Part shown: positions 1,087 to 46,009 of the stretch, one piece after another
Layout: every line of letters starts with the position of its first letter
How positions within the stretch are numbered: the first letter of the stretch is position 1
Assembly (NCBI RefSeq): GCF_030253575.1
Contig: NC_080562.1
Coordinates: 32,381,852 to 32,445,851 of the forward strand
DNA length: 64,000 nt
DNA from: Rhododendron vialii
Lineage: Eukaryota > Streptophyta > Magnoliopsida > Ericales > Ericaceae
Direction: 5' to 3'
Made by a program: the position numbers and the translations under genes
Notes under the pieces: generated by a model
The model's input: only the letters and a program-made list of their open reading frames with translations
Database searches by the model: none
What the model was told of the DNA's origin: nothing

Positions 1087-1095
1087 TATATAAAG
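1087..1095 (+). promoter_or_regulatory. TATA box, likely promoter of the E1 antisense accessory gene
   Basis: TATATAAAG stands in a GC-richer context just inside the 3' LTR. It is followed about 30-50 bases on by a CT-rich leader typical of a plant transcription start. A good splice donor (CAG|GTATGC) follows near 1230. It points toward the plus-strand accessory gene, opposite to gag-pol. The promoter role is inferred. Confidence 0.5.
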
Positions 1096-2687: not shown

Positions 2688-2715
2688 ATCAAAGATCTCT
2701 TCGATCGCTTCAAAT

Positions 2716-5132: not shown

Positions 5133-6199
5133 GAGGATTCACTTTTTCCCTTTTTGTTTGTTGATTTCTTTGTTTCGAATTCTGAATTTTTGTTGGACTG
5201 GACGGATCTGAGCTTGGATTTTGCCATGCCAGATGTAATAGTTTAAGGGGGGTCGGCACGAATGATTTACCATGCCATACCTCTCAGCTTAGGGGGTTTT
5301 GCAACGCTTGTTTTTCTTCAAATGAATGGCTTTGCTTTACATTTGCAATGTTTCAGTTTTGTCGAACTTGGTTGATTGTTCTCATGCCTTATTCAAATTT
5401 GTCATCATGCTTTTTTTGTTTGAATGGTAGCTATCCGTAGCCCCCACTTTGGTCTGGGTTCGGCTAAGAAGTTGGTCATGGGCCGAAGTGGAAGTTGCTT
5501 AATTTGCTGTCGTATGGTTGCCGAGCCTTGACCAAAGTACAGTGGATAAGTCTTGTTGATACGTTGCCGAGCTTGGCTTTTTTCGCGTCCATTTTTCAAG
5601 TTTTGTGGACTATACCAATGTTGGCAACAAAAAAGTCGCTTGGTGCCCCTTTGTATGGTTGGGGTTCGGCCAATCTCCCAACTCCAAGTTTGAGATTGAA
5701 TGTTTGTGGGTGGTTTGCTCACCAAAGCGTGAGTATAACCAGGCGCTGGCCGACCTTACTGTCTTGCCAAGCCGAACCGAAGCCTAAATTCCATCCGTAA
5801 TGTGTGTCTTAGGCTTGGTGGACCATATGTCCGGTTTTTGCTTTTTTGGGCAGTTATAGTGGCCGAAGCAGGGGCGTAAAAGCCGTTTGTGGGTGTGACC
5901 GAAGTCAACGTTTGGGGTTGGCGGAGTATTCCGAGTGTAGTTTTATAGTAAGGAAGACAAGTAAAAATTTGTAGAAGACATCGATTGCCAAACAAGATAC
6001 TTCTTTTACTTGGAAAACGTGAAATACAAGTTGAATGTAAAGATTTTGGCCGAAGCCAATCATAAAGAGATTGACATTGTAGTGGCCGAAGCCAATTTTG
6101 CCGTAAAAAAGCTTAAGAAGATAATAAAACAGGATAGATAGTGGCCGAACATGAGGCGCACTGTTGGTATTTTATTTACATGTATGCCCTCTTTAGATT
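5133..6199. other. Spacer between convergent accessory gene and pol of E1
   Basis: I see no gene here. The stretch is rich in the words GCCGAA and TTCGGC, which recur in coding and LTR parts of both Tat elements. It corresponds in position to the AAGT/ACTT array of E2 but has no comparable repeat that I can see. Confidence 0.5.
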
Positions 6200-9100: not shown

Positions 9101-10431
9101 TAACGACCACTGTGTTGGACAACCATGTTGGGTATTGTACTTCTTGGATGGCGTTGGCCTCCAGCAAACATTTGACTTCTTCAACGATGACGTCAGCATG
9201 TTCGGCTACAGAACGCCGTGTTTTCTGGATGACAAGCTTAGCATCTTTCTTAATGTTGAGAGAGTGACTGATGAAATCGGGATCGACACTCGGCATCTCG
9301 TTGGGGGTCTAAGCAAAAACTTCTATGTTTTTCTTGAGGTATTGAAACATTTCTTCGCGATCGGCCTCGCTGATGGAAGAGCTGATTAAAAAGAATCGCG
9401 AGCCATCCTCGTTGATGGGCATCAAGACGAGGTCTTCTTCCGCTTTGTCTTCAGCTTGCTGGCCAACATCATCAATCACGACAATGTTGGAATTTCGACC
9501 CATTGCACTTGCTTGGCTTTGGTGGAATTGTGGACGGTTAAGAAGTAGCACTTTTTGGAGGCTATTTGGCCACTTCGTAGATCTTTCAGTCTCCCATTGA
9601 TGCTGATGAAGCGAACGACCTAGTGGTAGGTTGAGGCGATTGCTTGCATGCCGTGTAGCCAGGTTCGGCCAAGAATTGCGTTGTATGGGCTAGGTACGTT
9701 GACGACGATGAATTCGACGCTCAATATTTTCGAGCCAACGACGACTGGCAGAAAGATTCGAAACGGGTGCTCCGTTAAATCCGATGAGGGGGTACTTCGG
9801 CGGGTTGCAAAGCTGACTCTGAGAGATCAAGCTTTTTGAACAAGTCATAGTACATGACCTCCGCCGAGCTTCCCTGATCGATTAGAACCCGCTTGACGTC
9901 ATGTACTCCAATTTGGACAGTTAGGACGAGGGCGTCGGAGTGTGGTGTTTGCACATGTTCGAGATCGCACTCAGTAAAAGTTATTGTCCATTTGGGTAAC
10001 TCTTCTGGTCGTAGACGTTTGGATCCAGGTACTACTGCGATTACCTGCTTGGAAGTGGATGCACGATTGAGGTCGACCCAAAGATTGGATTCAGATTCCT
10101 TTGTCACGGGGCCGTGAATAACGTGTATCGACGATCGCAGTTCATTTGGGTTGGGATTGCCAGCAGGTGGATGGGGGGGTGTTTTGGTTTGATCAATGTA
10201 CTGATCGAGATGGCTTTGTGCTGCCAAACGCTCCAATAGTGCTTTGTATGGTGCGCATGCGGTTGTGTAATGACCGAGCTCGTCGTGGTATGAGCACTTC
10301 TTTCGTGGGTTCTGATCTGCTTGGCCAGTGTCTGTGCCCAGCTTTCCTATTGGCCATTCGAACCACAGTTGTCTCATGATTTCCTTCAAAAAAGACCAGA
10401 TGGGTTCTTTGAAGTATGTGGTCTCGGCCAC
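6200..10431 (-). pseudogene. E1 pol remnant (protease, RT, RNase H, archaeal-type RNase H, integrase)
   Basis: Reading on the minus strand from high to low coordinates: a CCHC-like knuckle and aspartic protease core (about 9775-10430, motif VLIDQGSSAEV), reverse transcriptase (about 8390-9300, with GKWRVCVDYANLN and YIDDLVV), gypsy RNase H (about 7970-8340), archaeal-type RNase H (about 7660-7900, motif HVDGASNSNGAG), then integrase with zinc-binding region and catalytic core (about 6200-7300, motifs LDNGSQF and STPAYPQGNGQAEA). All are cut up by multiple breaks. The enzymes would copy the element RNA into DNA and insert it in the nucleus. Confidence 0.92.
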
Positions 10432-10493
10432 ATAGTCATGTACCTTCAGTTGCGCTTCTTTCCTTCCTTGATGTTGTGGACAAGTTTCTTTGG

Positions 10494-12004
10494 CTAAGGC
10501 TGCTGCGTTGTGACTGGTGCTGGCAGCTGAGGTGTGACCATTGGGAAGCTTGTAGTTGAGTTCGTTAGCCCTTGATCTGCACGGTCCGCGTAAAATTCTT
10601 CAAGAGCGCAGAACCGTTCCACAATGCGCATCAACTTGCCCATGCCATGGGGTGGGTGAATAGCAAGTTCATCCAGAATCTTTCTGTTAATGTCCAAGCC
10701 ATTTTTGAAGGTTCTTGCGGCCCAATACTCGTCGATTTCAGGAATTTCATTGAACAGTTGCCAATATCGTTCGGCGTACTGTCGGAGAGTTTCAGATGGG
10801 AGTTTTCGCATTTGGGACAATGACTCAGGCTCCTTGGTGGTCCTATTGCTTGTGATAAAGCTGGTGTTGAAAGCGCGTTCAAGGTTGGCTAGGTTCCGTA
10901 TAGATCCAACGGGCAATTTGTTGAACCACTGGAGTCCAAGGGAGCCAAGGCTGGATGGGAATGCTTTGCATTTGATTTCGTCCTTTGTAGTGCATAGCTC
11001 AATGGTTTGATGGAAGTGAATCAGGTGAGTATAAGCTTCGCAAGTGGTAGGATCGAACTTTGTAAACTTCGGTAAGTGGAAGTTGAGTTCGGCTGTCATG
11101 TTGATTATGTGGGGCATGAAGGGAGAAAAGCCGAGGTCCTTCAGCTGCCGCTCAAAGCCAGGGCGCGGTGGCTTGCTGTGCCCATCCGTCTTCATTCTCT
11201 TAGAGTCTCTGTCCGGGGACTTTTCATGGTTTCAATGCCGAAGCTTGTCTCGTAAATCTACTGTCGATCAGTGAGGTCGTCAACAGACTTTCCTCCGCCC
11301 CTACGGGATTTGGTTTTGTTGTTCGGCTCTTCAATATGCACGCCTTTTCCGTTCCGTCGAGCCTGGTTGTTATTGTCAAAATTTTCTGCCGGGATTTCCC
11401 CGAGACAGTCAGATACGTGGCGTCTGGTCTCCACGAAATCTTGGCTACGGTGGGAAATCGTTGTACGAGAGAACTCCGCGCAACCAGTCAAGTATGTGCT
11501 TGTAAACGACTCAGTGTCCCTAGTATTGGTTCAATCGTGGTAGCTCTTTGAGCGGTGTGTTCCGGATGTTGCAGGTCGCTTGTAAAGTATGATTTCCCTT
11601 GCATTACCTGGGTCTGGTGGGATGACAAAGCGGTCTTTGACAGAGCCGCGATGGCCGGTTTCATGAGGACGTTATTGTGGTGGTGGTGGGGGTGGTGTTT
11701 GCTTTCGTTGCCTCCCGCTTCTGCCTCCCGCGGATCTAGATGTAGCAAGAGTGGTGTCTCGCTGTATTCGTTGTTTCATTTGGGCAACTTCCGCCCTCAG
11801 AGCTGCCAGCTCGTTGTCCCTATCTTCGTCGCGACGTTGTAACAAGCGAATGTAAGCCGTTGTTACGTCGTCCGCCGCTGGGGAGAGGCCGGAACTAGGG
11901 GGGAGTGAAATAGACATGTGTCTCTCCGAAAATGGTGGAGGGATTGTGTTTCCATTGGTGTCTTTGGCCCCTGAGACGGTGACGTCCGTCAGATCTCCGC
12001 CCAT
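10494..12004 (-). pseudogene. E1 gag remnant
   Basis: The core (about 10500-11195) is a Retrotrans_gag domain with the pattern FPSSLGSLGLQWFNKLP and RQYAERYWQLFNEI, the capsid-like region of Ty3/gypsy elements. The upstream part (11672-12004) holds a helical segment with DEDRDNELAALRAEVAQMK followed by a Gly/Arg and Pro run, matching the usual N-terminal region of Tat gag. The gene is broken. Confidence 0.85.
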
Positions 12005-12104
12005 GGTGATTAAAGCTGTGGTGGTTGTTGAGAGGAGGAGGGTGGATTAAAGGATGTTCGAGCCGTCTGGATCAGAAGTTTAAGTTCACGTCAGGTTCAC
12101 CAAT

Positions 12105-12717
12105 TGTGTGGCCCGTGGTCCCTTGATCTGGGATCCTCCTCCGATGGTTTGTGGGTTTCCTAGCCTTTTCGCTAAATCCTGCACAGTGAACGCACGACTA
12201 AGACCTAGCCGGGGTTGCTCGGCAAGGCCCTCCGGCGAGAGGATGAGAATGTGCAGAGAATTAAGTAAGGGACTAGGGTTTTTAGATAGCGTAGTGTGTG
12301 TACCTTTTAGGGTTTTTCCTTCAGTATTTATAGAGCCTTCCTAGCTTGCTCTCCAAGCACGGGCGTGTGTTTTGCACGGGTTAGGTGACGTCGCCTTGAC
12401 GTCACTGAGCAGATCTGATAACCGTCTTTGTGCGTGAGCTGGCAGCCCCCATGTGTTTTCATCGTTATCCCTTAATATAACCGCTTCGTCACGTGAGAGA
12501 GCACGTGACTCAGCGGGTGGCCGAACTCAGATCTCGCCGACCCTGGCGGACAACACGAGGGGGAAGTCCAACGGAACCGCCTCGTAAAGGGTGGCCGAAC
12601 CTGAAGAGATTCCTCAAAGGTGGCCGAGGCTGAAAGCCTACTTCTTCAAGACGGTCGCCGAGCTTGATCTCGCCCCGCTCCCCAATGGGCTCGGACCATT
12701 AGATTCGGTCTACTACA
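12105..12717 (-). repeat. 5' LTR of E1
   Basis: This direct repeat of 108-761 is slightly shorter than its partner. Outside it lies GTAAT (12718-12722). A minus-strand TATA-like element is at 12325-12333 (TATTTATAG on plus). Inside, read on the minus strand, the LTR end is followed by ATTGGTGAACC, the position expected for the tRNA primer site; I do not assign the tRNA. Confidence 0.93.
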
Positions 12718-12722
12718 GTAAT

Positions 12723-13678
12723 AGTTTGGACAATCAAAATGCAAATTATATTGCAATAAACACCGATACAAATTACACGGCCCCATAAGCCTAACAAAGA
12801 GGAAAACCAGAACATCTAAAAAAACAAATCTACCAATTAAAGGAACTTCGCTGCACCTGATCCCTTGAACTTCACCGGATCTTAGTCTGAAGCTTGTCAA
12901 GGACCACTAGTCGGCCGGATGTGGAATCATCCACAATAGTACAGTGAAGGAAACTATCGTGGGGGTAGAAAACCCAAAAATGTATGAAGGATACAAGAGG
13001 GAAATAATATTTTCCTTCAAAGTGAGAGAAAAGCTCTCAAACCCAGTCCATATGCATAGAACAGCCCGATCTATACCCTGAGTGTTTTATGAGCGCACCG
13101 GAAAAGTCACCGAAGAATGCCGGAGGAGTGCTAGAAATCTCTAGAGAGAAGCTCTGGAGCTCTCTCCCTCAGGTTGCACAAACTTCTTCCCCTCTAAGTG
13201 GTCAATTAGTAATAATTATACAATTGCATTAATGGGCCCTATTTTGGTCTAAAAATTGGTGGCCTGGTGGGCCTATGCCAAGGGCCGACCTATTGATAAG
13301 TGAATTTACGCAAGATTTCTTCACACTTTAGGCATGTCATGCTTGAACAATGTATTACACGTGCTTCTTGATCATAGCCATGAATAAAATTTTAGCACTG
13401 TACAAAAGCAACTCAAAAATCAAGTAGCCCAACAACTTTTGCTATTCTTATTCTTGCTAATTACTTAAAAAAGCAAAAGTATAATAAGGAAATAAACACA
13501 TAAAGACATCTTACAATGTAGCCAAACAAGGACTAATAAACCTTCTTCACTGTTGAGGCCTCCGATCTCATACTCTCCGGTAAACAAGAGAGGTTTTAAC
13601 GTTAGAAGATGCCCGTGGAAACTTCATCATCCGATAACGAATGCTTGGTCTCTGGACGGGACGTTCATAAAGCAAGCT
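12723..13678. other. Intergenic, nothing recognised
   Basis: The right flank of E1 shows no convincing coding frame, terminal repeats or splice pattern. The first part (to about 13200) reads like unclassified repeat-derived DNA; 13310-13560 is AT-rich. Confidence 0.4.
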
Positions 13679-17123: not shown

Positions 17124-18222
17124 ATCACATGTTATGTAGTAGTATTATACTGTAAACTGACCTCAATAACTAGGCTTCCGAGACAAATAGATCGGGTAAA
17201 AGAGAAAGCAGATAGAAAGTTGGATGTACTCTGCAATGTCGCTGCGTTTTGTGATGTGCCAAGAAAATAGACGGAGCCTTTATCGAGGCATCCGAAGCTC
17301 CCCGTCGCAAATTCCACAGCGACACAGATATCTTCCCAATAGAAACTCCGGAGACTCGGGGCGAAAATCTTCGCCGAACTATTGATGTCTTTGAAACACC
17401 TTCTGAGTCCAAATTCCAGTAACCTCCGACCAGAAACATCCAATCCTTTCAGCTCCAAACCATCAAGTTTCAAATACTCTAGGCACGGGCAATTGATACT
17501 GAGATCAGACATTGAGGAGAGGGAAATTACAACCCGAAAACAAGTCCGAACAACCCCTGAGAACTACAGTGGTTAGAGACAAGGTGTGGACCGTGGGGAA
17601 CAAAACCGGAGGAGAAGACCCAAAATCTGTATAGCTGAATATTTGATCACAGCCTCTCGGCTTATAATAACTATCCCGATATCGTAGGTGGTTCAACGTG
17701 AGAACCCTAAGCTTGTTGCTAATGAACAAACTTTGAGGGAGAACAAACCAGCCTTTATCTACGGTAAGTTTGAGCTGTTCGATCCCGTGATTCATTAGTC
17801 GATCGATGCAATCGCGCAGCTGAGAGGGACTTACATAGCCGGAGACAGTGGAGAGGCGAAAGGTGGTAATATTGGAGTTGGGTTGACGGCGAGATAACAC
17901 AGTGCTTATCAGTTTCATGGACTTGGGAGTGAGACTGGAGAAGTCGAGAAGAGGTTGGGAACGCCACAGGCATAGTTGGTTCCAGTGTTTGGAAAGAAGG
18001 GTGGTTTGTGTGAGGGATTGGATTGGTAGGAAAGAGAATATGTGGTGGAGTAACTCGACCGGTAAATCACTGATTCTGTCGCTGGTGTTTCTCTCCTTCA
18101 TCTTGTTAATCTCTGCCTCAGCCGTTAAGCTCTTGCCATGGTGTTTCTCTCCTTCATCGGCTGTTTCCATTGTTGTTTCTTTTACGTAGGGTTTCTCGAT
18201 TTCATTCTGTTAACAATATATA

Positions 18223-19770: not shown

Positions 19771-20045
19771 AGGATGTAGGGAGGTATTCCCGAGAAGATA
19801 CATTTAGTTGCCGAACACGTGATATTCGGGAGCACGTGGTAAGTATGACAGGACTTACCGCCGGACAGTTCGATGAACAGCGATATGGACCAGTGATATG
19901 GGAAGTCATTAATCCATGCAATCTATTCGGCAAAATTAAGGGCCAATGATATGAGAAGTTATGGCTATAAACTGACTGTTCGGCAATTAGAGACATTCCG
20001 ATTACATTGGCCCAAGTTACATGTGAAGTAATTGGTCCAAGCAGG

Positions 20046-20072
20046 CTGTTCGGTTATGATACAGCCGAACAG
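20046..20072 (+). repeat. LTR hairpin 1 (CTGTTCGG...CCGAACAG)
   Basis: Inverted arms around an 8-11 base loop, in the U3 part of the 5' LTR about 530 bases upstream of the TATA box. The same hairpin is present in the 3' LTR. Confidence 0.7.
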
Positions 20073-20299
20073 ATGATGTAAAGAACCTAGCACGTGATAC
20101 GAGTGATCACAGGTTTAAAGCAGTGCAATCGATATCCGAATAAATGGTACGTGGGACCATAGTTTGAATATAGACAGGACGGTCATCGTGCTAAACAAGT
20201 GTTCGGCAATATGGACCAATGACATGAGAAGTCAACGGTCCAGGAAGGTTGTATGGGCTCAAGGACCAGTTACATGTGAAGTAACTGGTCCAAGCCGTC

Positions 20300-20324
20300 T
20301 GTTCGGCCATGAGACGGCCGAACA
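20300..20324 (+). repeat. LTR hairpin 2 (TGTTCGGCC...GGCCGAACA)
   Basis: Perfect nine-base inverted arms with a seven-base loop, about 280 bases upstream of the TATA box; repeated at 30883-30907 in the 3' LTR. It may be a paired protein-binding site; role inferred. Confidence 0.8.
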
Positions 20325-20599
20325 AAGATGGAGCTCCAATCGAGAGTAGGAGCAGAGGGAATACTCTGGAAGATTCCAGAATAGTCATGTTCCGTAAAGG
20401 AATAAGATTCCAAGAATATAGGATCTGAGAAAGATACCCAACAAGTATGGGATGATCGGCTCTTAATGGAAAAGAATCCTAAAAGGACTCTTTTCCATAA
20501 ACTGATAAAGGAAACGAGACTCCTTGATATCCTGGGTCTCCTATACGAGTTAGGAATCCTATGGCAACAAGGATGCTTGGACAGCAAGCATCCATAAAT

Positions 20600-20609
20600 C
20601 TATAAATAT
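20600..20609 (+). promoter_or_regulatory. TATA box of E2 5' LTR
   Basis: CTATAAATAT, well placed for transcription of the element. The equivalent site in the 3' LTR is at about 31183-31192. Confidence 0.75.
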
Positions 20610-20870
20610 GAGGTAAACCTAGAGGTGAAAGGTACGCAATACGTTGCATTATTATTGCTTTCCTACTGATAATTAGGGTTGAGTTTCCTAGTACGTGATA
20701 CTAACAAAGGCATCGGAGGGCCTTTACCACGAGAGGCAAAGGTTGACTACCCCCTGTCTATTTTGCAAATTAGGGTTCAGACGTCGAGCTAGAGTTCCGG
20801 TGAAGAGGCACGAATAAGCCGTTGCGATCCAGTTGATTCATAGTACCAATTGTTTTCATCCCCCTACAAT

Positions 20871-20888
20871 TGGCGCCGTCTGTGGGAA
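20871..20888 (+). promoter_or_regulatory. Primer-binding site of E2
   Basis: TGGCGCCGTCTGTGGGAA starts two bases after the 5' LTR, as expected for a tRNA primer site. This sequence form is common in Tat-type elements. I do not assign the tRNA. Confidence 0.75.
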
Positions 20889-21054
20889 ACGAAAGAATTC
20901 CCTTTTGAAATACGACCATGGTGGAAGTAACTCCAGCAACACTGCATGAACCAAAAGATGTGTTAGATGGAGGAAGGAACAAATCACCACCTGGGGCTCC
21001 GAGAAAGCCCCAGGGTGGGCACAGGAGGAACACGAGTAAGGACCGCCCCTTACC

Positions 21055-24000
21055 GTGCATCATAACTCCAAAAATAGAGAAGATGGAGAGACGGCTTCGA
21101 GATCCACGAGAAGGAGTAAATCCCATCAAAGGGATGAATCGATTGCACACTCCAGGAGTGTGCACCATAGCGACGACGTTCTTGACAGAAAGAGGCAAGA
21201 AGTCGAGGAGTATGCTCGTCTGATTAAAAAACGAGAGCATGAGATCAGCGAATTGGAAAGAATTAGGGAGCATCCGGAGGATTCTGGACTGTCTCGAAGA
21301 AATTCTAGAGGCAGTAGGTATGCTGTGGTACAATACAGAAAAACTCCTTCACAAGGAAGAAGGGGCAGAAGCAGGAGCAGAAGTCCTGTTATAGGGCGTC
21401 ATGAGGCTTCTCCACGAAAAAGGAGAAGAAAAAGTAGAAGCCGAACACCAGAGAGAAGGACTTCTTCACGAAAAAGGAGGAGCAGAGACCGAGGTTCTAC
21501 CCCCGAGGAAGAGGACACGAGAAAGCATCATCGAAACAGGTACGAGAGACCTGATGCTGATTGGGTCAAGGCTTCGGCCCACAAGTCAAAGGAGCAAGAG
21601 GATGGGACAGTAACTGCACGAGAAGCAGCGCGCAAGGCCCTGAGTAATATTGCAGCCTCCCCCTTTACAAAAAGGCTACAAGAAGCAAGATTGCCGAGCA
21701 GAGTGAAGCACGGAGCGTTCGTACTTTATGAGACAAATACGGATCCCGTGGCTCACATACAGCATTATCAACAGGCCATGTTTATGCATGAAGGGGATGA
21801 TTCCATCTTGTGTAAAATGTTTCCCTCCAGTCTTGGCAAGGTGGCTTTATCCTGGTTTCATAAATTGGCCCCACGATCCATACAAGGATGGAGACAGTTG
21901 GCCGAGGAATTCACTGCTCGGTTCTTGACAAGCAGAAAGGCCCCAAAGACATTTGAGAGTCTTTCCACCATGAAACAGGAGGAGAACGAGCAAATTAGAG
22001 ATTATGCAAAGAAATACTGGGAAACTTTCAACGAGATTGAAAGTTGCAGTGAAGAGTATGCAATTGCTACGTTCAAAACTGGTTTGCCTGTTCGGGGAGA
22101 GCTGCGCCGTTCATTGAATAAACATCCAGTAGCCACCTTGGCTAAATTGATGGAACGGATAGAGCAACACGCCAGAATGGAGGATGACATACTCCGTGAG
22201 GATGGCAGGGTGGTTGTCGAACATCCGAAGGCACCTGCCAAAAAAGTGGATAAGCCAGAACCCAAGTCTTACAAAGACAGAAGAGAGTACGGGCAGGCTA
22301 AGAAAGAGCCATACAAGGACAAGCAAGCTCCTGACCGCAAGTCCTTCTTTTCTATCACTGCGGTTTGGAAGGAGCCAATATACAGGATTCTTTATCGAAT
22401 AAAGAATCAGCCATATTTTAAATGGCCCCCAAGTCTAGGCGGAGACAAAGATGCAAAACGTGCTACGAATCAGCACTGCAGTTATCACAAAGATTGGGGC
22501 CATATGACCGAGGATTGTGAGGTATACAAGAGGCACCTTGATGATTTGGTCTCTCGGGGCTATCTCAAGGAGTTTATCCAGGAGGACCCTAAAGAGAAAG
22601 GGAAGGCTATGGAGCTGGGTTACGAGCAACACCCTAAAGGCGTGATCCATATGATACATGGGTTGGCTGCACCTTATACGAGGAGTGAGGTGAGGCTGTT
22701 GCAAAGACAGGTCAAACACGATCAGCACGTGATGCGATTGGGAAACAAGAGAGGGCGAGAGACTAATGTATGCAATGAGAGCATGGCATTCAGTGATGAT
22801 GATTTGGCGGAGGTCCAAATACCCCACAATGATGCATTGGTCGTAACCCTACGAGTTGGGGAATACGACATCAAAAGAATTCTAGTGGACTCGGGGAGTT
22901 GTACAGAGGTATTGTACTATGATGCATTCAAAAAGCTGGGCCTGGCCCAATCAAACTTAGAACAATCAACAACACCTCTAATTGGGTTCAGTGCAGGAGC
23001 AGTTTGGCCCCTTGGAAAGGTAACGTTACCTGTTCGGGCCGGATCAGTGGTGTTGAGAACAGACTTTTTGGTGGTCGATGTCCCATCTTCCTATAACGCG
23101 ATTATAGGGAGGACGTGGTTGCACAAAATGAGAGCAGTCTCCTCGACTTATCACCAGATGGTGAAATTCCCAGGGTCAAATGGGATTGAAGTCCTTAAAG
23201 GAAACCAGAAGGTGGCACAGCAATGCTTGATTTCCATCATCAAAACAGCCCCGAAGGTCCACCATGTTCACACATTAGAAGTACCAGATCAACCAACCAT
23301 CGAGGATGTTGGAAGAAGCCCGGCTGAAAAAGTGGTTGAGGGCTTGGAAAAGATTCAGATCAACGAGATTGATCCTGAAAGATATTTTTTAATTGGAGAA
23401 TCACTGCCAGCAGATGAAAAGGCCGAATCGGTAAAGTTCCTAAAAGACTATATGGATGTTTTTGCATGGGTGCCTGAGGAAATGCCTGGGGTGGATGCAG
23501 ATGTGATCTGTCACCATTTAAACATTGATCCTCTGCATAAGCCGATCATTCAGAAGAAACGAAGGGCAGCCGTACAGCATGTAGATGCTGTGATTGAAGA
23601 GGTCGATCGTTTATTGGAGGCCAAGGCAATACGTGAAGTCTATTACCCAAAGTGGTTATCCAACACTGTTGTGGTAAAGAAGAAGAATGGAAAGTGGCGT
23701 GTCTGCGTGGACTTCACAGACCTGAACAAAGCATGTCCTAAGGACAGTTTTCCTTTGCCTAGGATTGACCAATTGGTTGATGCAACCTATGGTTACGAGC
23801 GAATGAGTTTTCTCGATGCATATCGAGGATATCATCAGATTGCTATGTTTGAACCTGATCAAGAGAAGACTTCGTTCATCACACCACAAGGGTTATACTG
23901 TTACAGTGTCATGCCCTTTGGACTAAGGAATGCTGGGGCTACATACCAAAGACTTGCAACCATTATGTTCAAGAAGCTCATCGGGAAGACTTTGGAAGTT

Positions 24001-26628
24001 TACATAAATGATATGGTGGTAAAGAGCCGAGAAAAGGGAGGGCATATTTCTGATCTAAAGGAAGTGTTCGAAATCTTGAGGAAGTATAAACTAAAACTCA
24101 ACGCCTCGAAGTGTGCGTTTGGAGTTGGTTCAGAAATATTCCTGGGCCATTTGGTAACTTTGAGAGGGATAGAGGCAAATCCCGATCAGATTGATGCCTT
24201 ACAGAGACTACAGAGTCCCAAAACTACCAAGGAAGTCCAGAGGCTGACTGGAATGGCAGCAGCACTTAACAGATTCATCAGCAGGTCAAGTGACAAATGC
24301 AGACCCTTTTTTCAGCTACTGAAAAAGAGGGAGGGATTTGAATGGGGAGCAGAATGTGAGCAAGCTTTCCAGGATCTGAAGAAATACCTGGCCGAACCCC
24401 CACTGTTGTCAACTCCACAGCCAGGTGAGTCTTTAATTCTGTACTTAGCTGTTTCCGAGCACGCAGTAAGTGCAGTCTTGTTGAGGGATTTGGGGATCGA
24501 GCAAATCCCCATTTATTATGTTAGCAAGACATTGTTGGATGCAGAGACGAGATATCTGCCTCTAGAAAAACTCGTCCTGGCACTTAGGACAGCAACCAGG
24601 AAATTGCCACACTACTTCCAAAGCCATAAGGTTGTGGTTTATACTGAGTATCCATTAAAATCACTGCTTCGAAAGGCAGATTTCTCAGGAAGGATCTCGA
24701 CATGGTCCGTAGAGTTAAGTCAGTATGATCTCGAGTATCAGCCACGCACAGCAATTAAAGGCCAAGTGTTGGCTGATTTTGTGACAGAGTTTTCCCCCAC
24801 TGTTGCTCCCTTGCCTCCTACGAGAAAGGAACATGCAGCTAAGACATCATCCTTGAAGGATCAACCCGTAGCCGAACAGGATCCCAAAGAATGGAAGTTA
24901 TTCGTTGATGGATCAGCGTGTAATACTGGTTCTGGAATTGGAGTTGTCCTCTTTCCTCCTCAAGGAGTTCTGATTGAACTCTCTGTTCGGCTTGGATTCA
25001 GTGCATCGAATAATGTGGCTGAATATGAAGCACTCTTGGCAGGATTGAGAAGTGCAAAGACCCTTAAGGCAGAACGGGTCAGGGTGTATTGTGATTCCCA
25101 GCTCGTTGTGAATCAACTGTCCGGCGAGTACGAGACTCGGAATGAAAAGATGGCAGCCTACGTGCAGGCAGCAAAAGACTTGCTTGATACCTTCGAGAGG
25201 GTATATATTGAGCAAATAAGTTCTGGACAGAATGCTCATGCAGATTCTTTAGCTTGGTTGGCTGCAGCAGTACCAACAGAGTTCAAAAGAAGGGTGGCAG
25301 TAGAATATCTAAATGAGCCGAGCATTGGGAGGAGTGTAGACCTAGTCTTGGACGTGAACCAAGGACCAAGTTGGATGGACCCAATAATGGAGTTCTTACG
25401 AGACGAGATACTCCCTTCTGATAAAAAGGAGGCCCACAAAATAAGAGTCAAATCTGCTAGGTTTTGGCTGTCCCCAGAGGGTAAGTTGTATAAGAAATCC
25501 TTTACAGGTCCCTATTTGCTATGCGTACATCCTGAGATGGTACAGAAGTTCCTTCATGAGATCCACGAGGGAACATGTGGGAGCCATGCTGGAGGAAGAT
25601 CCATTGCCCACCGAGCAATTACTCAAGGCTACTGGTGGCCACACATGCAAGAAGATGCAAAAGTTTATGTAAAGATTTGTGAGAAGTGCCAGAAATTCTC
25701 ACCAATGATTCGAACACCTGCCGAGGATCTGGTGCCTTTGACGAGTCCCTGGCCTTTTGCCCAATGGGGAATGGATATCGTGGGCCCATTGCATAAAGCA
25801 ACTGGGAATCGAAAATTCCTGCTTGTAGCAACTGATTATTTTACGAAGTGGATTGAGGCAGAACCATTGGCCAAAATCACTGAACCTATGATAGAAAGGT
25901 TCGTGTGGAAAAGCATCATCACTCGCTTTGGGGTCCCTTATTCATTGATTACAGACAATGGATCCCAATTTCAGAAGAAATTCAAGGCTTTTTGTGCCCA
26001 GTATGGAATACGAAATTATTACTCCACTCCGGCCTACCCTCAGAGTAATGGGCAAGCAGAGGCATCCAACAAAACTATCCTAGATGGGATAAAGAAGAGG
26101 CTGGACAAAGCAAAGGGAAAATGGCCTGATGAGTTACCGTTAGTTTTGTGGGCTCACCGAACAACACCTAGGAGGTCTACGGGAGAGACCCTCTATTCGT
26201 TGGCATATGGAACAGAGGCTGTCATACCTCTAGAAGTGGGTCTGCCGACCAACAGGACAGCTTTGGTTGAAAGTGGAGGCAATGACAGGGCCCTTGAAAT
26301 CGAGCTTGATCTTGCCGAGGAGAAGAGAGAAAAGGCCTTGGTACATTTTGCTTCTTACCAAGAACAGCTGATGAAAAGCTACAACAAACATGTTCATCCT
26401 AGAGAATTTGGTGTTGGGGACCTTGTGCTACGAAAAGTGCTCGGCAACACCAAGGTGGCAAATGAAGGCAAGCTTGGGGCCAACTGGGAAGGCCCGTATA
26501 GAGTAACTGAGATTGTGGGCATAGGAGCATATAGATTGGCAGATCTGGATGGTGATCCAATTCCGAGGCCTTGGAATGTTCATAATTTACGAAAGTTCTT
26601 TGTTTTGAAGTATCAAAATCTGTTTTGA
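21055..26628 (+). CDS. E2 gag-pol polyprotein
   Basis: One open frame of 1857 residues. A basic Arg/Ser-rich N-terminus (to about 190) precedes the Retrotrans_gag domain (about 220-360, FPSSLGKVALSWFHKL). A CCHC-like knuckle (CSYHKDWGHMTEDC) is near 474. The aspartic protease core (ILVDSGS) is at about 610. Reverse transcriptase follows at about 825-1020 (GKWRVCVDFTDLN). Gypsy RNase H is at about 1120-1245 and archaeal-type RNase H at about 1280-1410 (LFVDGSACNTGSG). Integrase has an HHCC zinc region near 1500-1550 and a catalytic core at about 1570-1700 (TDNGSQF, STPAYPQSNGQAEA). It makes the particle and the enzymes for reverse transcription and integration. gag and pol share one frame. The exact start is uncertain because other ATGs lie upstream, from 20918. 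Confidence 0.95.
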   Translation: MHHNSKNREDGETASRSTRRSKSHQRDESIAHSRSVHHSDDVLDRKRQEVEEYARLIKKREHEISELERIREHPEDSGLSRRNSRGSRYAVVQYRKTPSQGRRGRSRSRSPVIGRHEASPRKRRRKSRSRTPERRTSSRKRRSRDRGSTPEEEDTRKHHRNRYERPDADWVKASAHKSKEQEDGTVTAREAARKALSNIAASPFTKRLQEARLPSRVKHGAFVLYETNTDPVAHIQHYQQAMFMHEGDDSILCKMFPSSLGKVALSWFHKLAPRSIQGWRQLAEEFTARFLTSRKAPKTFESLSTMKQEENEQIRDYAKKYWETFNEIESCSEEYAIATFKTGLPVRGELRRSLNKHPVATLAKLMERIEQHARMEDDILREDGRVVVEHPKAPAKKVDKPEPKSYKDRREYGQAKKEPYKDKQAPDRKSFFSITAVWKEPIYRILYRIKNQPYFKWPPSLGGDKDAKRATNQHCSYHKDWGHMTEDCEVYKRHLDDLVSRGYLKEFIQEDPKEKGKAMELGYEQHPKGVIHMIHGLAAPYTRSEVRLLQRQVKHDQHVMRLGNKRGRETNVCNESMAFSDDDLAEVQIPHNDALVVTLRVGEYDIKRILVDSGSCTEVLYYDAFKKLGLAQSNLEQSTTPLIGFSAGAVWPLGKVTLPVRAGSVVLRTDFLVVDVPSSYNAIIGRTWLHKMRAVSSTYHQMVKFPGSNGIEVLKGNQKVAQQCLISIIKTAPKVHHVHTLEVPDQPTIEDVGRSPAEKVVEGLEKIQINEIDPERYFLIGESLPADEKAESVKFLKDYMDVFAWVPEEMPGVDADVICHHLNIDPLHKPIIQKKRRAAVQHVDAVIEEVDRLLEAKAIREVYYPKWLSNTVVVKKKNGKWRVCVDFTDLNKACPKDSFPLPRIDQLVDATYGYERMSFLDAYRGYHQIAMFEPDQEKTSFITPQGLYCYSVMPFGLRNAGATYQRLATIMFKKLIGKTLEVYINDMVVKSREKGGHISDLKEVFEILRKYKLKLNASKCAFGVGSEIFLGHLVTLRGIEANPDQIDALQRLQSPKTTKEVQRLTGMAAALNRFISRSSDKCRPFFQLLKKREGFEWGAECEQAFQDLKKYLAEPPLLSTPQPGESLILYLAVSEHAVSAVLLRDLGIEQIPIYYVSKTLLDAETRYLPLEKLVLALRTATRKLPHYFQSHKVVVYTEYPLKSLLRKADFSGRISTWSVELSQYDLEYQPRTAIKGQVLADFVTEFSPTVAPLPPTRKEHAAKTSSLKDQPVAEQDPKEWKLFVDGSACNTGSGIGVVLFPPQGVLIELSVRLGFSASNNVAEYEALLAGLRSAKTLKAERVRVYCDSQLVVNQLSGEYETRNEKMAAYVQAAKDLLDTFERVYIEQISSGQNAHADSLAWLAAAVPTEFKRRVAVEYLNEPSIGRSVDLVLDVNQGPSWMDPIMEFLRDEILPSDKKEAHKIRVKSARFWLSPEGKLYKKSFTGPYLLCVHPEMVQKFLHEIHEGTCGSHAGGRSIAHRAITQGYWWPHMQEDAKVYVKICEKCQKFSPMIRTPAEDLVPLTSPWPFAQWGMDIVGPLHKATGNRKFLLVATDYFTKWIEAEPLAKITEPMIERFVWKSIITRFGVPYSLITDNGSQFQKKFKAFCAQYGIRNYYSTPAYPQSNGQAEASNKTILDGIKKRLDKAKGKWPDELPLVLWAHRTTPRRSTGETLYSLAYGTEAVIPLEVGLPTNRTALVESGGNDRALEIELDLAEEKREKALVHFASYQEQLMKSYNKHVHPREFGVGDLVLRKVLGNTKVANEGKLGANWEGPYRVTEIVGIGAYRLADLDGDPIPRPWNVHNLRKFFVLKYQNLF

Positions 26629-26832
26629 ATTTACACTACGTGATTGTGTGGGAATTACGAATATAATTCCTTTGTTCTAGTTTTGATTATTTTTGCAAAG
26701 GGTACGAGTAACGCCCTCTTGCGTTTTACAGATTATGAATAAAATCACTTCTTTCGAATAACTGTTGTGGTATTTAAATACGAACTACGAGTTTGGTTCT
26801 CCTTATTCGTATTGGGGAGCAGGGTATACCTT

Positions 26833-27372
26833 TTGAGTATGTGAAACTTAAAAGAAGCCTTTTGAGTATGTGAAACTTAAAAGCCTTTTGAGTATGTGAA
26901 ACTTAAAAGTTTTATACATTTTTAAGTACGTGACACTTAACGAACACAAGTACGAAACACTTGTATAGAATTTCAAGTATGTGAAACTTGGGTATACATT
27001 TTGAACGCAAGTATGAAAACACTTGTATGTATTTTCTTAAATACGTGATACTTAGCAAGTACAAGATACTTATATGGTATTTTAGGTACGTGATACTTGA
27101 GAAACTATATTGGCTTGACTTAAATGTAAGCCACATTTAGTTTAAATACGTGAAACTTAGTTCCTAAGTATGAAAAACTTAACAACATTAAGTATGAGCA
27201 CACTTATATACCTTGTTTAAAGTACATGAACACTTAAGAACATTCAAGGTGGAACACTTTTAAGTACGTGAAACTTAAAAGTCAGAACAGGAAATCATGT
27301 GTGAACGATTTGCTAAAAGTACGAAATACTTATGCAAACAAATGATGCGTAAACAGTACGAAATACTTAGGT
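26833..27372. repeat. Array of AAGT-N-ACTT half-palindromes
   Basis: About 16 copies of a 17-20 base motif of the form AAGTACGTGAAACTTAA, spaced unevenly. Each is a small inverted repeat (AAGT...ACTT) around ACGTGA or a variant. Three copies near 26835-26910 are almost identical tandem units of about 27 bases; the rest are diverged. It fills the gap between the end of gag-pol and the end of the convergent accessory gene of E2. The role is unknown. Confidence 0.85.
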
Positions 27373-27558
27373 TGAACTTGCATACGAACAGATGCTGCAA
27401 ACATGAGAAGCCGAACATAAAAGTTATGCCACGAAGGGCCGAATACCTGTGTTGTCAAAATAGAGAAAGTACTGGTACCACGCAGGGTAAAGAAGCCAAG
27501 GTCATGCAAGACCAGCCCAACGATTGAAATCAAACAACAAACTACCTGCTTGTTTTTT

Positions 27559-29799
27559 TTAATCCAGGTTCTGAATCTCTGGAGGGACATCAGCCTCAGC
27601 AATGGCAGCAGCGGCAGCAGTTTGTACTTCTAGGATAACAATCTCAGTGGTCACATCCGGAACAGACGAATGATCAACATCATCTTGTGATTCTACCTGT
27701 ATTTCTTCATCAACATCTGCAAAGTCGTCGATTTGTTGATCAACATCGTCAGGAGGAGCTGTAACTTGACGACTTGGTAGGTCATTCTCAACCCAAATGG
27801 GAGAATCTTCAGCAACTCCCACCTTTGTAAGGCACGATTCCCAGCAGGCAATCCAGATCTGATCTTGAATGGCAGGCATCTGCTCGACGTAGTTAGCAGT
27901 TGTGGAGTCAAAACCTTTCTGGTACCCATTTTCGTATGCAGCTTTCTTGGCACTGTCAATCTCTGACAAAGCATGATTGAGGCCTTCTTCGGCAATTTCG
28001 AGTTTGCCTTTAGCTTGATTGAAGTCGGATTTGTCTTTATCTCTTTCTCTTTCCAACCTGGCGATTGTTCGAAGCATTCGGGTGTTGTCATTCATCAGCC
28101 TGACTCTTTCAGCATCAGCTTCTTGGTATTTTTTGCCTAGAGTAGCCATCTTTTGAATAAACTGCGGAAATACCATATGTAGGTTATAATTTTTAACCAA
28201 CACAAAGGTAGGGCTTGAAAAACAAAGAAGAAGTTTTTTACCTTAATTCCATTGACAAGACCAGTAGACACCAGCCGATCAAGCGAAGACAAGGATTCTT
28301 TTTGCACATCAACAGGGAGCATTAACCCTTGAGCCAAGGCTAGAGCAGTCTCAGATGAACTGGCACTATCTCCGACATGTACAGGACGATCTCCTCTAAT
28401 AAGAGGAGGAGTCCATATCTGAGGAAGGATTTGAGCAGTTGGTGAATTGGGTTGATGAGTTTCAGTATCTGCTTGAGAAGCAGTACCATCTTGATCATCT
28501 ACCCTTGGGCGTTTGTCTCTATGAAGGTCAGCAGCCTCTGTGGTGGCGTCCACTTCTCGAGGAGAAGATGATGACCGTGCGGATCCCCCCCTATTATGAC
28601 GAGATCGTGGGGGAGGGGCTCCAGTTGAGGCCACCCGCCCAGTCCCACGTCCCCGAGAAGAGACGGTGACGAGGGAGCTGAGATTTAAGGGCTGGCGTGT
28701 CATAGTGCTCGAGATAGGAGGAGATGGAGAATAACCTGAGGATGAGGATTGGCTAGTTACACAGATCGGAGCTGGCTGTTCGGGTAATGGTAGAGAGGAG
28801 GCCTGACTCCGTGAGGATCTTCGAACTCTTACTCGTGGTAACGGAATTCCTTCGGAAATTGGGACTTCACCCAGTTGGCCGGCTACTGTCACTCCAATGT
28901 TAGCTCTGGTACTCCTAAGCTGGGAAGCAGTGGAGGTGGAAGCAGTACTGGTGCTGGGGTGAGCGAGCCTTCTGTCTATAACCCCTCTATATGAAGGGTC
29001 GTATCCCAGAAGTACTTCTGCGTTACGACCCTGACCAGCTGTAGAAGTGCCAGGTTCGCTTGTATATTTTAGACCCTTGTTGATGTCCTCTGTTCGGATG
29101 TTGCTCGGAACGCGTCTGGGACGATAGTTAGCGTTTTCAGCTGTCAGATCAAAATTGTAACAGCAAGATTAGACACATGTAAAGGCTATGAGAAAGCGGT
29201 AAACGAAAATATTACAAACTTATTGAAAGAGGAGTATTACGTGGGTATCCGCATATGTGGGGGCAGTGGAGTCCCACCACTTGACCATCCTCTCCTAATG
29301 GCTCGAAAGCTCCAGTAACGTATAAGAAGTCAATCTCATGATCCCGAGCAGAATCCGGCAGGTTGAGCACGAGACGCTTTTCTGCCCTTCTTACTTTGAA
29401 ATAGAAGGTGTTATATTCAGGGTTTAGTACAATACTGTACCACCACTGAATGTCCCAGATCCCTAGCTGGGTCCCTAGAATCCTATTTAAAGCAATTACT
29501 CCATTTATCAGCCTAAAAACATTTGTTGATACTTGCATAGGAGTAAGGCGGTACCAATTTAGGATCTGACGAAGGAGTGGATGAAGGGGAAAACGGACTC
29601 CTCCTTCAACAATTGCTACGATAGGGATACACATTCTGTCCCATGAGCCACTATCCCTATCTGCTCCTAGAGGGGCAAGTTCGAGACCTACGTTATCAGG
29701 AACATTGTAATCCGTCCTAAACGTCGCCATTGCGGCGGGGGTATCACAGAATTTCCTAAACTTACTGGGTCTAGGAGGGGTGTCATGTTCATCCGCCAT
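27559..29799 (-). CDS. E2 antisense accessory gene (gypsy-type plant domain plus coiled coil)
   Basis: Read on the minus strand it forms three blocks with good splice signals: about 29241-29799, 28242-29140 and 27559-28161, with compatible phases and about 686 residues in all (splicing inferred). Block 1 is the globular domain with GGVRFPLHPLLRQIL, FRLINGVIALNRILG and WWYSIVL, the plant 'gypsy type transposon' domain. Block 2 is a Ser/Pro/Arg-rich linker ending in a helix with LALAQGLMLPVDVQK. Block 3 is a coiled coil (about 28160-27960) with AYENGYQKGFDS, then an Asp/Glu-rich tail. The start codon precedes ADEHDTPPRPSK. The order matches the E1 accessory gene. It converges on gag-pol. It has no enzyme motif that I can recognise; a structural or nucleic-acid-binding role is speculation. 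Confidence 0.8.
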
Positions 29800-30339
29800 G
29801 GATATACTCGAAGAAAACGTAAATGTAAGAATGGGCGTGATTGAAACCCTAGAAATAACCACAATCTGAGAATGAAATCTCAGATGAAAACCTAAGCAGA
29901 AGAAATGGAGTTAGAACGAGAGTCTTACAACGATACCGTGACGATTTCTTGGAATACAATCGAATTTGCAGATGGCGGCGATGGCGGAAAGCTTAGGACT
30001 GAAAGTTCGAATGTTTTGGATAAAAAACCAAAAAGAGCCCTTTCAGCGGTTTAAAGGTGAGAGACGGAGACGAAATGTCTCCTCTCACGCCGTTACAGGT
30101 AAAAGTAACGGAAAGCAGAAACCGTTCTGACGCCGTTTCATAGAACGTCAGTTCGAAGTTAATGCTAGGCATATGAAACGTGCCACGTGGAGTCATTACC
30201 TCGAAATGGTATAATGACAGAGGCGCCAAAAGGCATCAATGAGATATTGAAATTATGATTGCATAGGATCAAAAGAGTTTGGTCTAGATGGAATTCTGTT
30301 TCTAAGCATCATATATTGCCCCCGAACAGTGGTAAATAC

Positions 30340-30357
30340 ATGAAGCTGGGGAGCAAT
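30340..30357 (+). promoter_or_regulatory. Polypurine tract of E2
   Basis: Purine-rich AAGCTGGGGAGCAA ends at the 3' LTR start, the position where plus-strand DNA synthesis is primed. Confidence 0.6.
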
Positions 30358-31452
30358 TGTAGGGAGGTATTCCCGAGAAGATACATTTAGTTGCCGAACA
30401 CGTGATATTCGGGAGCACGTGGTAAGTATGACAGGACTTACCGCCGAACAGTTCGATGAACAGCGATATGGACCAGTGATATGGGAAGTCATTAATCCAT
30501 GCAATCTATTCGGCAAAATTAAGGGCCAATGATATGAGAAGTTATGGCTATAAACTGACTGTTCGGCAGTTAGAGACATTCCGATTACATTGGCCCAAGT
30601 TACATGTGAAGTAATTGGTCCAAGCAGGCTGTTCGGTTATGATACAGCCGAACAGATGATGTAAAGAACCTAGCACGTGATACGAGTGATCATAGGTTTA
30701 AAGCAGTGCAATCGATATCCGAATAAATGGTACGTGGGACCATAGTTTGAATATAGACAGGACGGTCATCGTGCTAAACAAGTGTTCGGCAATATGGACC
30801 AATGACATGAGAAGTCAACGGTCCAGGAAGGTTGTATGGGCTCAAGGACCAGTTATATGTGAAGTAACTGGTCCAAGCCGTCTGTTCGGCCATGAGACGG
30901 CCGAACAAAGATGGAGCTCCAATCGAGAGTAGGAGCAGAGGGAATACTCTGGAAGATTCCAGAATAGTCATGTTCCGTAAAGGAATAAGATTCCAAGAAT
31001 ATAGGATCTGAGAAAGATACCCAACAAGTATGGGATGATCGGCTCTTAATGGAAAAGAATCCTAAAAGGACTCTTTTCCATAAACTGATAAAGGAAACGA
31101 GACTCCTTGATATCCTGGGTCTCCTATACGAGTTAGGAATCCTATGGCAACAAGGATGCTTGGACAGCAAGCATCCATAAATCTATAAATATGAGGTAAA
31201 CCTAGAGGTGAAAGGTACGCAATACGTTGCATTATTATTGCTTTCCTACTGATAATTAGGGTTGAGTTTCCTAGTACGTGATACTAACAAAGGCATCGGA
31301 GGGCCTTTGCCACGAGAGGCAAAGGTGCACTCACCCCCTGTCTATTTTGCAGATTAGGGTTCAAACGTCGAGCTAGGGTTCCGGTGAAGAGGCACGAATA
31401 AGCCGTTGCGATCCAGTTGATTCATAGTACCAATTGTTTTCATCCCCCTACA
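30358..31452 (+). repeat. 3' LTR of E2
   Basis: Matches the 5' LTR at about 99% by eye and is followed directly by the GAGGA target duplication and by Helitron helicase sequence. Confidence 0.96.
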
Positions 31453-31457
31453 GAGGA

Positions 31458-32530
31458 TAAACTCTCGACAATAATTCATTTAGATTTTGACATCTACCTA
31501 TTGTCAATGGAAGGTGTACCACTTATTGAGGGTTTGTTCCAACCTAAAAAAATATTGAAGCACAAATCAATAATCAAACAAAAGTGCGAAGAATTACTGA
31601 TTCATTAAAAAAATAATCAACGTCAAGAATGATCAAAATTATTATGCAATATTACCTCCATTAAGAAATTTGCGAAAGTAGCATTTTCAGGATCTGTCGT
31701 ATTCAATCGCATGTTCAAATTCAATGTCAAGATACATATATCAGCCCACAAAACAGAGCGCCTAAGTGATGCGTTAACAATTTCCTCACGAACTCCTTTA
31801 GGTACAACTGGTAAAATTTGACGAAAATCCCCCCCAAGCACTACGGTGATACCCCCAAATGGTTTAGGATTGTCACGGATATCACGTAATGTGCGGTCAA
31901 CTGCTTCAATGCAATATTTATGTTGCATAGGAACTTCATCCCATATTATCAATTTTGTTTCTCTAAATAACTCTGCTTGTAGAGATTGCTTGGTAAAACC
32001 GCAGACAGAATTTTCTAGCACATCTAATGGGATGGCAAACGTTGAGTGTGCAATGCGACCTCCTTCCAATAACAGAGAAGCAATTCCGGATGAAACAACA
32101 ATAACCACTATATGCCCGAGACTATGACATTTTTGTGCAATGGTGTTATACAAAAACGTCTTTCCTGTGCCGGCACCCCATTCAAAAAGAAAGTAGTTCC
32201 TTTATTTCCAAAGGCAGAGCAAATAATGGCCTCATAAGCATTGCGTTGATCAATGTTAAGGCGGCCGATATTAGTCTCTGTATTTGCCTGTTGGGTTTGG
32301 ATCTAAAGTTGTCGATGTTCCAAAATCAATCTGTTACCAACAATTGTGCTCCAATTTTCGATAGGTTGCAGCATAGGTGGGAAGTCATGTAAATTCTTAC
32401 ATGTTTCTTCAAGCATCTGATTGAGAAGATACAAACCATAATCTTCAATATGAGTCTCTGTTGGATTAGGAATGGCAAATAACGTGCGAATTTTGTGCTC
32501 GAGGTCATCGCATATATTTATAAAAAATTG
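31458..32530 (-). pseudogene. Helitron helicase, N-terminal part
   Basis: The minus-strand frame carries the P-loop [14 protein letters not shown] (at about 32130-32175), the Walker B box LIIWDEVPM and the motif [12 protein letters not shown], all typical of PIF1-like Helitron helicases. Upstream of the P-loop are motifs such as EDYGLYLLNQML. The end near 31458 is the E2 insertion point; the rest of the helicase is at 19093-19770. The frame is shifted at least once near the P-loop relative to the downstream part. Confidence 0.9.
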
Positions 32531-44245: not shown

Positions 44246-46009
44246 AGCCACTGACAATGAAATCAAACACAAATTGTAAGAATCCTATGACCTACTCCCT
44301 CCGAGATTCATCTTTCTTTTTCGGGATGTCTGTCACACACTAGTGGAAAATACTTTTTCATAACTATCCTTTGCGTTAGGCTATGAACGATATATTCAAG
44401 ATTATGAATAAAGGGGCATTCATGTAAAGTACAACCTTTCTATTTGAGTTTGACTACAATTACTGCACATCTCCTCTAAAAGTAGTTCTAAATAAGGGCC
44501 AAGAACGTGAAATTGAGGGAGTAGATCGAGAAGGAGACTATCAGCCTTCAAGAACCTGCGCAACCAAGCAAACGAATTCTGAACACCATCGCAACACAGT
44601 TCAGAACCTACAAAGCTACAGTTATTTATCATCTCCATCAAGCATGGTGATTAACAGACAAAGAAAACCACCAAAATATTCAGGTTTCAACATTTAAATC
44701 ACAATTTCATGCATGTCATGTTAAATCAGATAAGGGATTCGAATTCAGTGCAAGTAGTCTAGCCTAGATCATATTCACCTCACTCGCTCACCCTTCTCTC
44801 GCAGGCATCTGTTACTTACATCAAAATAGATACAGGGACAAAACATGCAGTTTTGCCTTGAACTTTTTTCCTTTGTAATATTCCGTTGCAATAAAAATTT
44901 AAAAAAAGAAAGATAAAAATTACTCAATTATAAAAAGTCAACATAAAAGTACGTGAATTCATCTCATGCAACAGAAAGAGCTACCACCACCAAGGCACCA
45001 ACAGCTAAAGATAAAAGGTATAAATTACTAGTGAGAAACTGACCTCGAGAACTGGCCTTCCGACGGACAGAGATCGGACAAAACAGAGTGCAGATATAAA
45101 GGTCGCTGCCCTCTGCAATTCCGCTGGACTTTGTGGTTTTCAGTAGCGGAGCAAATAAAATTTTCTTGTATCGAGGTATTCAAAGCTCTCCGTCATACAT
45201 TGCACACGAAAAATGTCAGACTTATCCCAGTAGAATCTCCGCAGACTTGGGGCAAAAATCTTGGCCACGCTATTCATGTATGGGGAGTACCCTGTGACTT
45301 GTAATTCCAGTAACCCAATGCAAGAAATATCCAAAGTATTTAGGCTACCCTCGAGTTCTAAAATTTCAAGGCCCGGGCAGTTGATATTGAGAGCAGACAT
45401 TCCTACACTACCCTTCAAGCACAGTTTCCTAAGGAGAGGGAAATTACTACCCGAAAACACATCCGAACTAGCATTGAGCCATATATTAGTAAGACACAAG
45501 GTGTGGACTGACGGAAGGCTTGCCCTGGTATACAAGACCTTTACAGCCAAAATCACTGGACAACTAGCCCGAAGATTAGGGTATGGTGATTCAACGTGAG
45601 AACCCTAAGCGTGTTGCAACTAAACAAACTAGGCGGGAGATCAACGACACAGTCTAAATGAACGTCTAGTTCGAGATCTTCGATACCCTGCTCCATGACT
45701 AGTTCGACGCAATCGAGCAAGCAAGAGGAACTTACAGGACCGGAGAGGCAGAAGGTGATGATATTGGAGTCGGGTTGGCGGCGAGACAACACCGAGGGTA
45801 TGAAATCCATAGCTGTGGAATCGAGAGAGGGATGGGAGAAATCGAGATGAGGGTGGGAGCGCCATAAGGATAGGTGGTTCCAGTGTTTGGATAGGACGCT
45901 GGTTTGGACGATGGATTTGAATGGGAGGAGAGAGAATATGTGGCGGAGTAATTCGTCTGGCACATCACTGACTCTGCGTCGGCTGTTTCTCTCCTTCAAC
46001 TCGCTCTTC

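Follow-up and report, generated by a model that had tools for sequence, protein, structure and literature searches.

The closest described relatives of the gene studied here are the antisense TRP28 (Transposase_28, PF04195) open reading frames (ORFs) of Retand retrotransposons. Such an ORF occurs in 97% of recent Retand clusters and has been called a Retand characteristic (Vicient 2025, PMC11963269), and Transposase_28 was reported in 23% of Retand elements (Neumann 2019, PMC6317226). TRP28 is predicted to bind DNA, and in the accessible part of the survey PF04195 is reported from flowering plants only, with none outside transposable elements; the Retand lineage is abundant in some plants, and the function of TRP28 is given as not known (PMC11963269). 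In maize Grande, gene23 is reported to be transcribed from a promoter of its own and to give a nuclear protein, and the authors who review it call for examination of antisense and spliced transcripts (Vicient and Casacuberta 2020, PMC7264820). Plant LTR elements are generally described as lacking introns, with Ogre and EVADE named as exceptions (PMC12786077).

We analysed two Tat-type elements, E1 and E2, in the window (the whole 64,000-nt stretch of DNA). Judged from its sequence, the accessory gene of E2 is of this known kind, a divergent antisense TRP28 ORF. Like the Retand ORFs of Vicient 2025, it is antisense, lies in the interval between pol and the 3' LTR and encodes a PF04195-like domain, and Retand clusters likewise have a further antisense frame of coiled-coil type and a repeat array in this region (PMC11963269). 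That survey relied on an ORF finder, and its accessible text nowhere speaks of an intron, whereas the frames of E2 join into one predicted three-exon gene. The PF04195 score of E2 is under the cut-off, and its LTRs are not identical, which sets it apart from the recently active elements of the survey (PMC11963269). Grande gene23, compared here by description only, shares the antisense position between pol and the 3' LTR; its nuclear location and own promoter are reported, whereas a nuclear location is only inferred for the E2 product (PMC7264820). A non-exhaustive literature search found no intron-bearing or spliced TRP28 antisense gene, which we do not take as a claim that none is in print. 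The earlier note had mentioned antisense extra genes in some Tat elements; this is right, but they are better known than it implied, being a characteristic of Retand (PMC11963269).

Layout and class of E2

The features of E2 are as follows.

19775-20868, plus strand: 5' LTR, 98.995% identical to the 3' LTR, TG..CA ends, target site duplication (TSD) GAGGA
21040-26628, plus strand: gag-pol, a single unbroken frame of 1862 codons from stop to stop
26924-27371, no strand: imperfect short inverted repeats of AAGTAy..ACTT type (AAGTAyGTGAaACTT-like), from pattern counts
27559-28161, minus strand: antisense gene exon 3, 200 codons plus stop, coiled coil and acidic tail
28162-28241, minus strand: predicted intron 2, 80 nt, phase 0, GT..AG, 40% T
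28242-29140, minus strand: antisense gene exon 2, Ser/Pro/Arg-rich linker, KRPR at residue 403
29141-29219, minus strand: predicted intron 1, phase 1, 46% T, 79 nt (100 nt with donor 29240)
29220-29799, minus strand: antisense gene exon 1, PF04195-like (TRP28) domain, from the PF04195 match and E1 homology
29800-30357, minus strand: presumed leader/promoter region of the antisense gene, promoter activity inferred
30358-31452, plus strand: 3' LTR, from comparison of the LTR pair
30470-30907, no strand: U3 palindromes, about five GGACCA..ATATGTGAAGT..TGGTCC-like and two TGTTCGG..CCGAACA units

E2 is a complete LTR element on the plus strand, flanked by a 5-bp TSD (GAGGA). Its LTRs, put at about 99% alike in the earlier note, differ by 10 substitutions and 1 indel (K2P 0.0092). 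The gag-pol frame encodes, in this order by Pfam, gag, RT, RNase H (RH, 1102-1200), a second RNase H (RVT_3, 1290-1405) and integrase (1497-1667). We infer that RVT_3 is the aRH of the Tat clade, whose position between RH and integrase is the mark of Ogre/Retand-type Tat elements (PMC6317226); E2 has a second RNase H in this very place, which bears out its assignment to Tat. Its LTRs (1094 and 1095 bp), internal region (9489 bp) and interval from pol to 3' LTR (3729 bp) fall inside the sizes published for Retand (315-1194, 7380-12869 and 2933-6566 bp, respectively; PMC11963269). The antisense PF04195 ORF fits this lineage in place and orientation, with a domain score under the cut-off. On the other hand, the 10 substitutions and 1 indel between its LTRs keep E2 out of the PRARE class, for which identical LTRs are the criterion in the same survey (PMC11963269). 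From its sequence, E2 is most likely a young, Retand-like Tat retrotransposon.

The interval from pol to the 3' LTR holds the antisense gene on the minus strand, its ATG at 29799 and its stop ending at 27559, exactly where the earlier note had placed it. The three predicted exons join into an open reading of 693 aa, and donor 29240 with the same acceptor is also open and gives the 686 aa of that note. These two donors of intron 1 score nearly equally on a simple donor scale (4.7 for 29240, 4.3 for 29219), both being weak, so that the choice is ambiguous; the donor of intron 2 scores 9.4 on this scale. The stop-to-stop ORFs on the strand of the gene are 343, 232 and 227 aa long, while the opposite strand has none beyond 88 aa over the same stretch. 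When the dinucleotides were shuffled 500 times, the longest ORF on the strand of the gene was 102 aa on average and 207 aa at most; neither an ORF of 343 aa nor a third-longest one of 227 aa arose in any of the shuffles. Chance ORFs, whose lengths in all 500 shuffles stay below those seen, were therefore rejected as an explanation.

The T content of all four candidate introns of E1 and E2 is 40-46%, above that of the flanking exons (one-sided Fisher p, intron versus flanking exons: 8e-5, 1e-3, 4e-4 and 7e-7). If intron 2 were retained, the exon-2 frame would run to a stop at 28137 and, with the frame shifted, the coiled coil would not be made. The gene of E2 is predicted to be spliced twice. 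Upstream of its start, the nearest ATG on the minus strand is at 30141, leaving about 340 nt of the presumed leader free of ATG. A search of the minus strand from 30357 to 29797 with two patterns, TATAAA and TATA(A/T)A, gave no match.

With regard to the encoded protein, the earlier note had described a plant gypsy-type domain, a Ser/Pro/Arg linker and a coiled coil with an acidic tail. Exon 1 resembles PF04195 significantly (E 5.1e-5), but its 23.9 bits are 2.3 below the curated cut-off of 26.2, so that the domain stands as a likeness and not as a family member at the cut-off. Residues 194-440 contain 64 Ser/Pro and 27 Arg in 247, in agreement with the linker. The model of exon 3 is a single helix over its residues 2-82, the rest being of low confidence; pLDDT means of ten-residue blocks are 71-79 up to residue 70 and then 57 and 40. 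Together with the acidic end of the protein, whose last 82 residues include 23 Asp/Glu against 1 Lys/Arg, this bears out the coiled coil and the tail. The structure model of exon 1 (pLDDT 34.7) is too low for use. Profile searches of the three blocks, which the earlier note had proposed, gave the exon 1 match above and no Pfam or NCBIfam family at its cut-off for any exon, hence no recognised enzyme, as it had stated. Taxilin, CENP-H, CCDC93 and Yae1_N were considered for exon 3 and set aside as generic coiled coil, all being under the Pfam cut-off. PDB sequence searches gave no match up to E 1 for exon 1 and two weak coiled-coil matches for exon 3 (E 0.017 and 0.077). Exon 2 has basic motifs, KRPR in E2 and a similar KRQK in the exon-2 piece of E1. 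By its sequence, the product of E2 is probably nuclear.

A diverged homologue in E1 and probable selection on the frame

E1 is an older Tat-type element on the minus strand, with LTR copies at 105-671 and 12102-12668 that are 96.8% identical. No convincing TSD was found for it. All six E2 pol pieces tested match E1, with best stretches of 44-66% identity. E1 has a broken counterpart of the antisense gene.

2776-5132, plus strand (E1 pol on minus): broken homologous antisense gene of E1, from PF04195 and tblastn

This homologue occupies the same place as the gene of E2, antisense between pol and the 3' LTR, with its blocks in like order, and it also matches PF04195 below the cut-off of 26.2 (E 0.0034, 18.0 bits). 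Exon 1 of E2 finds E1 by tblastn at E 2e-15; identity over the aligned length is 30% for exon 1 and 27% for exon 3. Between E1 and E2, similarity reaches z 7.8 in an LLGYxPSY block of exon 2 and z 6.7 in exon 3, and 0 of 1000 shuffles scored as high. The long exon-2 piece of E1 (3920-4312) is not significantly similar to E2, being equalled by 99 of 1000 shuffles, and the likeness in this exon is confined to short blocks. A simple repeat of CCGAACCGAACC type is found at 2550-2680, between the 3' LTR of E1 and its antisense gene.

The candidate introns of E1 (3488-3573 and 4313-4409) are of phases 1 and 0, matching those of E2. A shared block, GLxLPxxxQK, ends 19 residues ahead of intron 2 in E2 and 18 in E1, and the similarity of the last 50 exon-2 residues was reached by 15 of 2000 shuffles, though this piece was picked post hoc. 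On the other side of the intron, the first 40 exon-3 residues are not significantly similar between E1 and E2 (302 of 2000 shuffles as high); in a global alignment they are paired from the first residue on, yet registers offset by 7 or 14 residues score higher. Judged from the exon-2 side only, intron 2 appears to have a common place in E1 and E2 within one residue. The agreement at intron 1 is weaker still; the phase-1 donor of E1 is directly preceded by an in-frame stop. Intron 2 of E1 ends in two adjacent in-frame acceptors (TTAGCAG, 4406-4413).

To assess selection, codon positions 1, 2 and 3 were compared between E1 and E2. In exon 1 (163 codons), identities were.44,.60 and.23, while composition alone predicts.26,.26 and.25, and 6 of 20 fourfold sites within identical residues agree. 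The values were.47,.48 and.30 for exon 3 (186 codons) and.74,.86 and.36 for RT as a control (148 codons). Since the amino acids are conserved although third positions are nearly saturated, the comparison supports long-term purifying selection on the antisense frame, weaker than that on RT. With third positions at chance level, dN/dS is not estimable from this pair. The earlier note had read selection from the conserved coding; the diverged homologue of E1 lends support to selection, but the unbroken frame of a young copy says little, because the coding sequence should have gained only about 10 substitutions (0.0046 x 2082), few of them nonsense, in the time since E2 inserted (LTR K 0.009).

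Relatives were also sought in collections of non-plant contigs, a scope that says nothing on plants. In viral contigs, exon 1 gave 4 pattern matches, a stretch of RT gave 10 and the exon-1 alignment of E1 and E2 gave 25; in genome contigs this alignment gave 61. None of these matches was confirmed.

Proposed function and its alternatives

On balance, we lean towards the antisense TRP28-type gene encoding, after splicing, an oligomeric nuclear trans-acting regulator of the element itself, which would act on E2 DNA or chromatin. The gene would be transcribed from its own promoter, located either in the stretch that separates the ATG from the 3' LTR or inside that LTR, and the transcript would be spliced twice and translated to a protein of about 690 residues. 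This protein would enter the nucleus by the basic motif of the linker and oligomerise by the coiled coil, and its N-terminal domain and acidic tail would act on the DNA or chromatin of the element. Such a regulator would favour expression of the element or its escape from silencing. An intron-bearing gene could persist in a retroelement because its introns lie opposite the genomic RNA strand; being antisense to the genomic RNA, they would be invisible to its splicing and so be kept through each round of retrotransposition.

Two known systems resemble this proposal in the way they work. HBZ of HTLV-1, a nuclear factor that dimerises through a helical region, is likewise encoded in antisense at the 3' end of an LTR element, by a spliced gene; it differs in being a bZIP factor whose transcripts start inside the 3' LTR (PMC3185765), whereas a Pfam search found no bZIP family match in the E2 protein. 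VANC, the anti-silencing proteins of VANDAL, are likewise accessory proteins encoded by the element, whose own non-coding DNA has arrays of short motifs. VANDAL is, however, a DNA transposon; the comparison concerns the way of working and claims no homology, and motif binding and lower DNA methylation, the marks of a VANC-like factor, would be putative for the E2 protein (PMC5735166).

The protein may instead serve the replication cycle, for example in nuclear import of the pre-integration complex or in integration-site choice, with its coiled coil binding Gag or integrase. Nuclear entry of this complex has been discussed for such ORFs (PMC7264820), and the E2 protein does have a basic motif and a coiled coil; yet antisense expression apart from gag-pol would be odd for a particle component, and Pfam and NCBIfam found no Gag- or integrase-like match in the protein. 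We regard such a role as rather unlikely. Antisense transcripts that form dsRNA have also been discussed as regulators of LTR elements (PMC7264820; PMC12786077), and the antisense RNA itself might, by pairing with genomic RNA, be the functional product or trigger silencing, so that the protein would count for little. An RNA-only role requires no reading frame, however, whereas exon 1 and, less strongly, exon 3 keep their amino acids with third positions saturated, and we consider this explanation unlikely.

The frames might also be three genes of their own, or ORFs that are not spliced together, as an ORF finder would list them. This would agree with published surveys, in which TRP28 and Smc-like antisense ORFs are listed apart (PMC11963269); splicing is here a prediction, and an ATG follows soon after the start of exon 3. 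Against this, the frames stop just past the GT..AG borders of T-rich gaps of 79-97 nt in both E1 and E2, and exon 2 has no Met before residue 339 of the joined reading, which makes separate frames quite improbable. LTR elements do capture host genes (PMC7264820), and the gene of E2 has predicted introns, as a host gene carried as a passenger might. E1, however, has this gene at 27-30% identity, placed and oriented alike, and PF04195 is described only from transposable elements of flowering plants (PMC11963269). A recent capture is thus very improbable, and we rejected it on account of the diverged homologue in E1.

To return to the self-encoded regulator, the spliced model changes the protein to be studied, from the TRP28 frame alone to the full length with coiled coil and acidic tail. 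If it is indeed a regulator or anti-silencing factor, it would help to explain the persistence of Retand elements. A bolder proposal, which we offer as a long shot, is that the TRP28 and Smc-like ORFs of Retand are one spliced gene, whose dimeric product would bind the inverted-repeat arrays of U3 and of the gap between the convergent genes and so block silencing. Its targets would be the AAGTAyGTGAaACTT-like and GGACCA..ATATGTGAAGT..TGGTCC-like units with their TATGTGAA-like core, besides the GCCGAA excess in parts of E1 and E2. If this were true, VANC would have a counterpart among retrotransposons, one whose introns persist through their antisense position.

Motif arrays and neighbouring features

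The motif arrays name candidate DNA targets for the antisense protein. The array at 26924-27371 sits where pol and the antisense gene converge, in the gap that separates their 3' ends. The first AAGTAy..ACTT pattern gave 13 sites in it, and a second pattern gave 13 counts corresponding to 11 distinct sites, two of which are read on both strands. Beyond the array, the second pattern was counted twice elsewhere in E2 and twice in the rest of the window; in mononucleotide shuffles its mean was 0.08 and its maximum 2. A TATGTGAA-like core is common to this array and the U3 palindromes, a likeness spotted post hoc and without a significance test. The array may be a candidate target or merely a tandem array. 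We treat the motif arrays of E2 as leads only, found post hoc in a region where tandem arrays are already known. A tandem repeat of 2.9 copies of about 26 nt lies beside the inverted-repeat array, at 26829-26909.

GCCGAA is among the most over-represented hexamers in E1 (672-12668) and E2 (19775-31452). Observed and expected counts in E2 are 8 vs 0.4 in the 3' LTR and 6 vs 1.8 in gag-pol; in E1 they are 8 vs 0.43 in the gap between the antisense gene and pol, 13 vs 2.3 in pol and 6 vs 1.3 in the antisense gene. The hexamer is not over-represented in the antisense gene of E2 (1 vs 0.71), between this gene and the 3' LTR (0 vs 0.28) or at 31460-64000 (8 vs 7.5). Codon usage may explain part of the excess in coding stretches.

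The window as a whole is plant-like and holds F-box genes besides LTR elements. Shortly past the 3' LTR of E2 there is a PIF1-like helicase ORF (31623-32201, Pfam E 3.6e-65), possibly a Helitron remnant. F-box ORFs are found at 17505-18209 and 50275-51477, the latter also with an LRR match, and DNA similar to the F-box ORF regions is present at about 45220-46000 and 63440-64000.
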